The notes beneath the pieces were generated by a model that ran no database searches, was not told the DNA's origin, and saw only the letters and a program-made list of their open reading frames with translations. A stretch of DNA of 46,111 nucleotides from Planctomycetia bacterium (GTDB lineage: Bacteria; Planctomycetota; Planctomycetia; Gemmatales; Gemmataceae), in NCBI GenBank assembly GCA_005808665.1, contig SYLG01000053.1:1-46111 (forward strand), in the 5' to 3' direction. Below are positions 1 to 12,656 of this stretch, one piece after another. Both the position numbers and the translations under genes were made by a program. Numbering within the stretch: position 1 is the stretch's first letter; each line of letters opens with the position of its first letter.

Positions 1-855
1 GGTTTCAATATTTTTGATTGTTGTTACCCAACCTCTAGACCGAATTTCTGTTGTTAATACTGCCACAGATACCGAACGATTATAGCATCTTATAATGAAA
101 TCCTTTGATATTTCCCCAATACCTATCGCAGAAAGATAGGCCTGTGGAGAAGAAATGTCATTATTAAATCTAACAAATAGTTCTTCGGAAATGTAATAGT
201 AGTAATCATTCATTAATCTATAAATAATTTTTGTATTGTTTTCATTTAAGTCAATTTTTTCAAATTTTGATCCACTGAACCAAAAAATTCGATGTCCGGA
301 TTGCTCCCTTGAAATTGCTAGTTTACCAATGAGTTTTGGTCCATCATTTTGAAAATAAACACTACCAGCAAACTCGCAAAGGTGTTCTAATCGCTCGGAG
401 TTTAATCTCCCAAAACAAAAATCCCCGAATCTGTAAATATCTGGCTCGTCCTGTGGTATTCCGATAATATAAAATAAAGACGAAGTAGTATCAGGAAGGT
501 TATCTAGAATGTAATTAAGATTTTTTAATACTGACTTTTTTTCATTAGATACTACTATTGACAAACCAATGATAAAAATTGCTATTTTTTCACTATGCTT
601 ATTTTTTTGTGAACATAAGATATGTTTTTCCTTAATTAATTGGCTTTGAACACACCGAATTAATGATGACAGATCAATATCAGCAGGTCTTTTAAACCCT
701 ACCCATAATTGTTCAGATTCATAAATCGTTCCATTTGGACATTCATTTCTAATCGAATCAAAAGCTATTTGTTTATCTTCAATGGATATCGAATCAAATG
801 ATCCAAGAGTAAGGGAATCAAAGGCATGGCGTAATTTAGGATCATTTGGAATCAT
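1..855 (-). CDS. Unrecognised AT-rich protein, C-terminus beyond the left edge
   Basis: Read on the minus strand, the frame is open without a stop from the ATG at 853-855 to the window edge, giving 285 codons; an in-frame stop lies just upstream (862-864). A good Shine-Dalgarno (AGGAG, complement of 867-871) sits 11 bases before the ATG. The protein starts MIPNDPKLRHAFDSLTLGSF and is rich in Ile, Asn, Ser and Lys, with A/T-ending codons unlike every other gene here, which suggests horizontal transfer. It is probably soluble: no convincing signal peptide, only one hydrophobic stretch (about residues 92-103). I recognise no domain or catalytic motif. It begins 14 bases inside the end of the truncated Cmr1 frame, so the two are probably co-transcribed. 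A defence-related role is only an inference from this position. The reading frame is well supported; the function is unknown. Confidence 0.75.
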   Translation of the reverse strand, partial: MIPNDPKLRHAFDSLTLGSFDSISIEDKQIAFDSIRNECPNGTIYESEQLWVGFKRPADIDLSSLIRCVQSQLIKEKHILCSQKNKHSEKIAIFIIGLSIVVSNEKKSVLKNLNYILDNLPDTTSSLFYIIGIPQDEPDIYRFGDFCFGRLNSERLEHLCEFAGSVYFQNDGPKLIGKLAISREQSGHRIFWFSGSKFEKIDLNENNTKIIYRLMNDYYYYISEELFVRFNNDISSPQAYLSAIGIGEISKDFIIRCYNRSVSVAVLTTEIRSRGWVTTIKNIET

Positions 856-1318
856 TACTGTTTACGCTCCTAAAATATAGGAATGAGGAAGGTGGCAACA
901 ATAGGAAACAATAGGAAACAATCGGTCTTTGAGTTGGATAAATGTTGCAATGCCCGCCAAATCTTGGTAGATTTTTTCCTGAATTATTGTGATAGGTTTT
1001 CGCACATGGTGAAGGTTTGTCCGCCTTTACATTTTCCACCCGGACCGTGACCTGACTGGAGCAATAGGTGGAGCCCCAAATTTCCGATTGTGCCTTACTC
1101 AATTCGGCGGTGGTGGCGTATTGTACCCCCACGGTCGCTCGCCACCAGAATTGCAGCTGCCGCCGAATCGCCGTCGGCCTGATGGGAAAATCCGGGTCAC
1201 ACTCCCGGACTTCGGCCCCGCCACCGAACATAGGCGTAATGAGCTCGATCTGGTAGAAACGGCGTGAATGGGTCGTAATGACGGGTTGATTGGGACAGGG
1301 GGGAACTACATCCGGCAT
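842..1318 (-). pseudogene. cmr1: Truncated type III-B CRISPR RAMP protein Cmr1 (N-terminal fragment)
   Basis: The 158-residue frame has two parts. Residues about 18-95 carry the first RAMP half of Cmr1: ITPMFGGGAE, then the RPTAIRRQLQFWWRA block (family pattern R-P-S-I-(K/R)-G-x-L-R-(F/Y)-W-W-R-A), then EIWGSTYCSSQVTVRV (family I-F-G-S...S-x-V-x-V-R-V). In intact systems Cmr1 is a subunit at the head of the Cmr RNA-targeting complex and is much longer, with two RAMP domains. After about residue 98 (near position 1025) similarity stops, the DNA turns AT-rich, and the last ~60 residues look like read-through of non-homologous sequence. The start ATG at 1318 has a GAGG about 11 bases upstream. 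No cmr2-6, cas6 or repeat array is in the window, so this is best read as a broken remnant or a gene cut by a recombination junction. The Cmr1 identity is from motif recognition and is fairly secure. Confidence 0.75.
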
Positions 1319-1518
1319 GGGCGTTTCAACCTCGCATGGGTCTTGGGTGAAGAGTCCATCGCATCAGTCCATTCTGGTCTATAATGATTCTTGAAAAATC
1401 CCAGTTATCCCAAAAAAATTTATTGAAACCCGATGTAAACAGAAATCGGACCCGAAATCAGGATCAAAGAACGCCCTGTTTTGATTTTTAACGAGATAAA
1501 AAGGGTTGATTTCGCCCG

Positions 1519-3009
1519 TTATTTCCCAGCGATTTTGCCCATTTCTTCAAACATTTCCTCATCCGTATGGCCACGAAAACTGTGCCCCTCTTTTGGGCCA
1601 AAAACAATGGTAGCCTTGGCCCTGGGTGTGGCGGTTTGGAGAAATTCCTCCAATCGATGCACGGCAAGGTTCAGGTAATACTCGTCGAGCTCGCCAGAAT
1701 AAATGCGGAGTTTACCCTCTAGTTTTGGTCCCAAGGTGGTCCAATGGGTCTGAAGATGGTCCCTAATATCGTATTTGCGCCAATGTTCGGCCACCTTATT
1801 GTCGATTTTGCCCGACGCACCATCCCAAAGGGGAACGGGTTTCCCATCGGCCCCTTTGGGCCCAAAGGTAGCATTCCAGCTGGCCCAGTCCTTGCCTCCG
1901 AGTTCCCAACGCCCTTTGGAGCCTAGCACCCGCTCCACCAGAACTTCGTGGCGAATCGTGTATTGAATATCACCCTTGGTCGTTCGCATGGCGGGCCGTT
2001 CAAAGCCGAAACGGTTCACATAGGCATTGGGCCCCTCGTAAATGTTCATCAATTCAAAGTCGCGAAAATCGACGGGATCCGGGCAATGGGACCAACAGCC
2101 TCCGAAATAGTCGGGATAAAAAACCTGAAGGGCCAAGGATACCCAACCCCCCGTGCTATGGCCTTCGGTAAAGCGCCAAGACGGTTTCCCGCCACAACGA
2201 AACCGTTTTTCGATTTCGGGAAGGAGTTCGGTGATCAGGGCGTCCCCCATGGGGCCATTGTTCGTGGAATTGACATGGTAGGGATCACCCCAGGGCCCCG
2301 CCCCATCGAGATGGATGAGAACCATCGGCACAGCATCCGGTTTGGCCATAGCCTTTTGGAAAGGCGAGGCAGGATGACCCAGGGAAAGGGCTTTGGTAAA
2401 TCGGGAGCCAAAACCACCAATGCGAACGACCAAGGGAAATAGGGCGCTGGGGTCCTTGGCAAATAGGGGCGGGAGGACCACTGCAGCGCGATGGAAGGTA
2501 TCGTACCCAAAAAATTGGGACAACTTTTCCGAACGAAAAGTGACCCACTTGACCCGATCGGTTTCGGGGGGAAGAGAATCCACAATCACCTGATCCAAAA
2601 CCAAATCCAAAGGAATGGGATTTTTGGGATCAAAGTTCCAGGCAACGGGTTTGGACCGAACATTTCCAGGAGCCAGGGGTAGGTTGATGGACCGGTTTTG
2701 GTGAAGCACCGCCTGCACGAAATACTTTCCCGGGGCAAGATCAGCCAAGGTCCCACGGGGAAAACAGAGGGAGTCTGATGGCAACGAAATCGCTTCACCC
2801 CGAACAAGGTTTACGGCATCCGCACCCACCATAGGAGGTGTGTCCCTTCCCGTATTGCCGATATGGCTCAAGGGGAAGCGGTCGCCCACCGGGGCGAACA
2901 CCACGATCACCCTTCCGGTCATTGGGACCGGATGGCCGGAACGAATGCGGATTTCCGGAGCCTTTTGCCCCAAGGCAAAGAAGGCAGCCAAGGCAACCAG
3001 GATGGTCAT
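1519..3009 (-). CDS. Exported alpha/beta-hydrolase (putative esterase, esterase D-like)
   Basis: This 496-residue protein has a short hydrophobic N-terminus (MTILVALAAFFALG) that can act as a signal sequence. The C-terminal two thirds fit the putative-esterase alpha/beta hydrolase family: the nucleophile elbow GHSTGG puts the catalytic Ser at 285, a plausible acid is Asp442 in GELDEYY, and His476 in KEGHSFRGH is the likely base. The N-terminal ~150 residues resemble a beta-sandwich accessory region. It probably hydrolyses ester groups on carbohydrates or other extracellular substrates; the substrate cannot be read from sequence. Its ATG overlaps the stop of the upstream cytochrome/HEAT gene by four bases (ATGA), so the two are translationally coupled. 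Confident on fold and catalytic residues, not on substrate. Confidence 0.85.
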   Translation of the reverse strand: MTILVALAAFFALGQKAPEIRIRSGHPVPMTGRVIVVFAPVGDRFPLSHIGNTGRDTPPMVGADAVNLVRGEAISLPSDSLCFPRGTLADLAPGKYFVQAVLHQNRSINLPLAPGNVRSKPVAWNFDPKNPIPLDLVLDQVIVDSLPPETDRVKWVTFRSEKLSQFFGYDTFHRAAVVLPPLFAKDPSALFPLVVRIGGFGSRFTKALSLGHPASPFQKAMAKPDAVPMVLIHLDGAGPWGDPYHVNSTNNGPMGDALITELLPEIEKRFRCGGKPSWRFTEGHSTGGWVSLALQVFYPDYFGGCWSHCPDPVDFRDFELMNIYEGPNAYVNRFGFERPAMRTTKGDIQYTIRHEVLVERVLGSKGRWELGGKDWASWNATFGPKGADGKPVPLWDGASGKIDNKVAEHWRKYDIRDHLQTHWTTLGPKLEGKLRIYSGELDEYYLNLAVHRLEEFLQTATPRAKATIVFGPKEGHSFRGHTDEEMFEEMGKIAGK

Positions 3010-11384: not shown

Positions 11385-12656
11385 ATGGTGGTGCTTGGCA
11401 AAGATGATGCTGTGGAATTGGTGAGGAGAAATCCTTCTTGCCCGGGGCCAACTCATTCCCAAACCTCGGATCCTGTTGCCCTCGTCCAGGAGCTGATTCA
11501 AAAGGCCTTGGGAGCAAATGCGTCGGATGTTCACCTTGATCCTGGACCAGAATCCTGGGATGTCCGTTTTCGGGTGGATGGCATTTTGCGCCCAGAAGGT
11601 TCGTTTTCATCGCGCCTTGGTCCCAATGTGGTTGCCCGACTGAAAGTCCTTGCCGAACTCCTTACCTATCGAACTGACATTCCCCAAGAGGGACGGTTGG
11701 AATTGGGAGGTATGAAAGGTTCCGGAATGGAAGGCCGACTTAGCACCTTTCCAACCCTTCATGGGGAGAAGGTTGCCATTCGGTTTTTCGGGCGGGAAGC
11801 CACCCGGCTTGGCCTTGATCACTTGGGCCTGGAGATGGAAACACTCCATCGGCTAAAGGGCTTGCTTGCCGGGCGACAGGGTGCCGTGTTGTTGACCGGC
11901 CCTGGTGGCAGCGGCAAAACCACGACGCTTTATGCCGCCCTTGAGTCGATCCGGGAAACGCACAAGAACGGCATCCACATTTTTACCATCGAAGATCCGA
12001 TAGAACGGCCCATAGCCGGAATCACCCAATCGCAGGCCAAGCCCGGAAGCGATTTTGATTTTGCCCGGGGCTTAAGGAGCCTGTTGCGGCAAGACCCCGA
12101 GGTGGTCATGGTGGGTGAAATCAGGGATGGCCAAACCGCCTCGATTGCCATGGAGGCTGCCCTTACTGGACACCTCCTCTTGTCCACGGTTCATGCTGGC
12201 TCGGCTTGTGGCGTTTTTTCCCGACTTTTGGACATGGGTGTCGAACCCTATGCCCTGACTAGCGGAATTCGGGGAGTCTTAAACCAACGATTGGTCCGCA
12301 AATCCTGTGCAACTTGCCGGGGAATCGGCTGTTTGGCTTGCCAGCAATCCGGTTTTTCCGGAAGGTTGCTTTTGGCAGAACTTGTTGAAGTGAAGGGACC
12401 ATTGCGCAAAGCGATCCTTGCCCGGGCCGATCTGGATGGACTGATCGATGCGGCCAGGGAAATGAACCAACCCCATGGGGGGGCGTCAGGAGAATCGCAA
12501 TTGTGGGAAACGGGACTGCGTGCCGTAGCCCGTGGCGAAACCACCCACGAAGAACTAACCCGGTCGCTTGGTCCAAAGCCTGGGCAGGGTGCATTGTCAC
12601 CAAAATCTATCCATCCTATCCCAAAATCGCAGTTGGACGGGGAGAACCGCGCATGA
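11385..12656 (+). CDS. gspE: Type II secretion / type IV pilus assembly ATPase (GspE/PulE family)
   Basis: A 423-residue cytoplasmic hexameric ATPase that powers pseudopilus assembly. Seen: the N2-type region with ASDVHLDPG (about 47-54) and RFRVDGIL, the Walker A GPGGSGKTTT at 172-181, the Asp box FTIEDPIE, the Walker B-type block LLRQDPEVVMVGEIRD, and the His box LLLSTVHAGSA. It is shorter than usual: the N-terminal GspE-N domain is missing, and the zinc-binding loop is compact (CATCRGIGCLAC, Cys-x2-Cys-x4-Cys-x2-Cys) where the family usually has a longer insert between the Cys pairs. The ATG at 11385 has AAGG seven bases before it. The stop overlaps the next start by four bases (ATGA), the first of several such joints in this operon. 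Confidence 0.93.
   Translation: MVVLGKDDAVELVRRNPSCPGPTHSQTSDPVALVQELIQKALGANASDVHLDPGPESWDVRFRVDGILRPEGSFSSRLGPNVVARLKVLAELLTYRTDIPQEGRLELGGMKGSGMEGRLSTFPTLHGEKVAIRFFGREATRLGLDHLGLEMETLHRLKGLLAGRQGAVLLTGPGGSGKTTTLYAALESIRETHKNGIHIFTIEDPIERPIAGITQSQAKPGSDFDFARGLRSLLRQDPEVVMVGEIRDGQTASIAMEAALTGHLLLSTVHAGSACGVFSRLLDMGVEPYALTSGIRGVLNQRLVRKSCATCRGIGCLACQQSGFSGRLLLAELVEVKGPLRKAILARADLDGLIDAAREMNQPHGGASGESQLWETGLRAVARGETTHEELTRSLGPKPGQGALSPKSIHPIPKSQLDGENRA

Follow-up and report, generated by a model that had tools for sequence, protein, structure and literature searches.

The DNA analysed here (the window, 46,111 nt) is an entire contig, C22, of its assembly. At its left edge, on the minus strand, we noted a frame that is open from an ATG at position 855 to the window edge, preceded by a likely ribosome-binding site of its own and by an in-frame TAA three codons upstream of the ATG. 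The start of this frame overlaps the 3' end of a frame carrying a remnant of Cmr1 by 14 nt. Both the open frame with its ribosome site and its start inside the end of the Cmr1 frame had been claimed in the initial annotation, and both are borne out. The gene appears to continue on a second contig, C38 (locus L003), and the features of the joined locus are the following.

1..141, no strand: contig-end overlap linking both parts of the gene; identical to the reverse complement of C38:1-141
1..855, minus strand: N-terminal 285 codons of the 491-codon gene, an unrecognised region; from the ORF scan; continues on C38 (L003:142-762)
842..1318, minus strand: Cmr1 remnant frame; TIGR01894, E 6.1e-12; PADLOC Cmr1, E 2.5e-16
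867..871, minus strand: AGGAG, likely ribosome-binding site of the 491-codon gene, 11 nt before the ATG; read from the sequence
1519..3009, minus strand: flanking esterase-like gene (PF00756), with a 76% identical gene in sister genome G294
L003 (C38) 863-1519, minus strand: TPR-like gene, convergent with the 491-codon gene; AT-rich and equally foreign, with a codon-use score of -0.347

Extent and surroundings of the gene

As had been suspected, only a part of the gene is visible in the window, namely the first 58% (285 of 491 codons). Leftward extension through the 141-base identity adds the remaining 206 codons, up to a stop at L003 (C38) 762, and with them a HEPN-like domain. The reading frame stays in phase across the overlap, and no contig of the assembly besides C22 and C38 carries those 141 bases.

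The Cmr1 remnant is short. Its homologous part is the N-terminal ~107 codons (998-1318) of ~440 residues, and the tail of the frame (842-997) is not homologous to Cmr1. Against four longer Cmr1 proteins from members of the family, this part shows 52-67% identity, roughly along residues 1-107 only. The longer frames, of 445-470 codons (G300, G307, G310 and G314), lie in loci that likely represent the ancestral state of the remnant; at these loci (L038, L039, L040 and L041) the longer Cmr1 genes stand beside large ORFs, probable cmr operons. With the Cmr1 gene truncated, and with neither another RAMP match nor Cas1 found in the assembly, whose completeness is rated at 100%, no working CRISPR system is left. 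A short tandem repeat with a unit of about 'caataggaaa' occupies positions 889-925, past the point where the Cmr1 homology stops and before the 491-codon gene starts, close to where the insertion boundary probably lies. As to the proposed expression of the gene from a Cmr1 promoter, a simple sigma-70 scan of the minus strand between 700 and 1600, which is not decisive for a planctomycete, found no promoter site.

On the esterase side, the DNA alignment with G294 ends at window position ~1533, at the stop codon of the esterase; the sequence of G294 beyond this point is different, and thus provides no clean empty site. The outer flanks are ordinary (the esterase, a large membrane-bound-dehydrogenase-like protein, a beta-propeller protein and DUF4328), so that, apart from the Cmr1 scrap, the gene lies in no defence island. 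Elsewhere in the window, at 11385-12656, 42 residues matched the PADLOC model mad8 weakly (E 0.0007), probably by chance. The TPR-like gene contains an internal 108-nt direct repeat of 70% identity. An operon of this gene with the 491-codon gene was ruled out, because the two are convergent.

Foreign composition

The visible part of the 491-codon gene has a GC content of 32% and a GC3 of 0.22, while GC3 is 0.53-0.61 in 17 long window ORFs. These 17 ORFs average -0.003 (SD 0.042) in codon-use score; the visible part, at -0.344, is ~8 SD away, which agrees with the initial annotation of its codon use as unlike the rest of the window. The Cmr1 part, in contrast, is near native (-0.071, versus -0.276 for the 491-codon gene), which makes the latter look like a later arrival than the Cmr1 remnant.

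A HEPN-like domain at the C-terminus

Residues 360-430 of the 491-residue protein match the Pfam family HEPN_Apea (PF18739) with E 0.006 and 17.5 bits, below the gathering score of 24.4, and we therefore do not file the protein as a member of that family; at E values up to 0.1, it is the single place in the assembly where the model matches. A profile made from the HEPN parts of four relatives, leaving out the 491-residue protein, scores it at 34.7 bits, where 5,000 shuffles reach 9.1 bits at most, a test that is not fully independent, as some of the relatives were gathered with a profile that contained the protein. An acidic residue upstream of the active site is conserved in many, not all, HEPN families; each of the four relatives has D or E at the position of D350. 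The active site of HEPN RNases has been described as RX4-6H (PMC3710099), which R395-SSYA-H400 fits, and all five members of the alignment share RX4H. Taken from the sequence, the C-terminal part (~324-440) looks like a HEPN domain with the catalytic motif RX4H.

The N-terminal ~320 residues had no meaningful match in Pfam, NCBIfam, PADLOC, PHROGs or PDB; there was no Pfam match in this part at E up to 1, the PADLOC models did not match the gene, and neither the protein nor the HEPN profile found a meaningful match among PDB sequences. AlphaFold2, run on the window part alone and so without the off-window HEPN part, gave a pLDDT of 40. The earlier statement that the gene has no recognised domain thus holds for the visible part, but not for the off-window C-terminal part. 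In the same way, the protein is undescribed only in its N-terminal ~320 residues, whereas its effector domain falls within a superfamily that has been described. In our judgement, the gene is not categorically new but a divergent one of a kind already known, and the unrecognised N-terminal part is its one point of interest.

Relatives and their neighbours

Searches through 95 genomes of the family, 294-392 genomes of the phylum, plasmids, phages and viral contigs, and two contig scans, found no close homologue. Neither the two sister genomes nor the others searched within the family yielded the HEPN protein, although its absence from the sisters, which are 90% and 79% complete, is not certain. 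Distant relatives, whose similarity is confined to the HEPN part, occur in the phylum genomes G231, G287 and G422. Three full-length relatives (450-469 residues) have the same layout, with HEPN at the C-terminus. HEPN_Apea itself is found above the cut-off in 10 of 294 phylum genomes; among the three usable of these ten (L056, L057 and L061), there was no full-length similarity to the 491-residue protein.

The relative in G287 (L049 3363-11969) lies in a type I R-M cluster, in the order HsdS, helicase, HsdM, HEPN and Mrr-like nuclease. One distant relative in G422 is near a HepT/nucleotidyltransferase pair, and the neighbours of the G231 relative are ordinary. The suggestion that such genes recur beside type III CRISPR loci is not supported: none was found in the genomes with the four intact Cmr1 genes, and the G231 relative stands among ordinary genes.

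A probable single-gene defence factor

We consider it probable, from sequence and by analogy, that the gene is a laterally acquired, single-gene abortive-infection factor with a HEPN RNase, has an ApeA-like layout and was inserted at a decayed cmr locus. The initial annotation had taken it for a foreign gene of a sort that often serves defence or a mobile element, and a foreign defence gene is supported by its atypical codon use, its patchy occurrence, the RNase motif within a HEPN-like domain at the C-terminus and the one distant relative in a type I R-M operon; the domain with its motif, the foreign codon use and the position beside the wreck of cmr are read directly from the DNA. An RNase activity, a dimer, a trigger and an anti-phage role we infer from the HEPN superfamily, with the biochemistry of HEPN RNases (PMC3710099) and the case of Tha (PMC11087260) as models. 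The N-terminal part (~1-320) would be the presumed sensor or trigger-binding part, and the protein would at first be held inactive. A phage product or another cue would meet this part and release the HEPN domain; the HEPN dimer would then cut RNA without metal, stopping the infected cell.

The N-terminal domain of the ApeA type is mostly beta and about 300 residues long. ApeA is embedded in R-M operons in epsilonproteobacteria, and its HEPN domain is fused to an N-terminal domain of ~300 residues that has been called poorly conserved (PMC3710099). Like ApeA (PF18739), the 491-residue protein is a single large protein with a poorly conserved N-terminal region of ~300 residues and a C-terminal HEPN domain with RX4H; an association with R-M is seen for the distant G287 relative, while the flanks of the 491-codon gene itself are ordinary. 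Unlike ApeA, it scores below the Pfam gathering cut-off, has no N-terminal Pfam match and no PADLOC match. Tha, from a prophage of S. aureus, is a single-gene HEPN RNase with RX4H and without a discernible N-terminal domain; its trigger is a tail protein of the phage, and it stops the infected cell (PMC11087260). It, too, combines an unrecognised N-terminal region with a C-terminal HEPN domain with RX4H, a comparison of how the proteins may work and not of their sequences; in contrast to the 491-residue protein, Tha has 301 aa, is prophage-borne and has its own modulator (PMC11087260). We file the protein with the HEPN superfamily, as one that probably works like ApeA and Tha.

A bolder form of this reading, in which the N-terminal ~320 residues are an undescribed sensor joined to the HEPN RNase, so that a single-gene defence with a new trigger replaced the CRISPR operon at this site, is tentative, and we would not expect it to be the case.

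Alternative explanations

The HEPN RNase could instead serve as a toxin in a module for addiction or stress, or take part in RNA processing as the cargo of a mobile element, with no anti-phage role. Many HEPN proteins are toxins (PMC3710099), one distant relative is the G422 gene near the HepT/nucleotidyltransferase pair, and a second foreign AT-rich gene, the TPR-like one, adjoins the gene. However, no small antitoxin-like gene runs the same way as this gene, the TPR-like one being convergent, and the long N-terminal region would suit a sensor more than a two-component toxin. We regard this explanation as unlikely.

An exact overlap, or shared k-mer, at two contig ends is the usual trace that k-mer assemblers leave of a branch in the graph, so that the window ORF might be a different AT-rich gene sharing a 141-base graph overlap with the HEPN gene of C38. 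The GC content changes close to the C22-C38 junction, from 32% before to 47.5% after it, and a strain-mixed join was therefore retained as a rival. On the C38 side, synteny gave no confirmation of the join, since the closest homologue of the beta-propeller gene in G294 is only 37% identical. Against a wrong join, the frame stays in phase for 206 further codons to a stop, C38 is the sole other contig holding the overlap, and, in sequence, the total length and domain order match those of the relatives, which argue for the join. A wrong join thus seems improbable.

Csx1 and Csm6 are HEPN proteins, and the gene adjoins the Cmr1 remnant on the same strand with overlapping frames, as a HEPN RNase near type III genes. 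A leftover accessory effector of this kind was nevertheless rejected as very improbable, because no CARF, Csx1 or Csm6 model (nor any other Csx/Csm model) matched in Pfam, NCBIfam or PADLOC, the codon use is unlike that of the near-native Cmr1 part, no homologue was found in the longer-Cmr1 genomes (G300, G307, G310 and G314), and the CRISPR locus here is a truncated remnant.

On the preferred reading, that of a laterally acquired HEPN-RNase defence factor, the locus would record, in a bacterium of this family, the turnover of defence genes at one site, where a type III CRISPR operon has been cut down to a 107-codon scrap and a foreign HEPN gene stands instead. The pool of HEPN defence candidates overlooked by current defence models would also gain a divergent protein.
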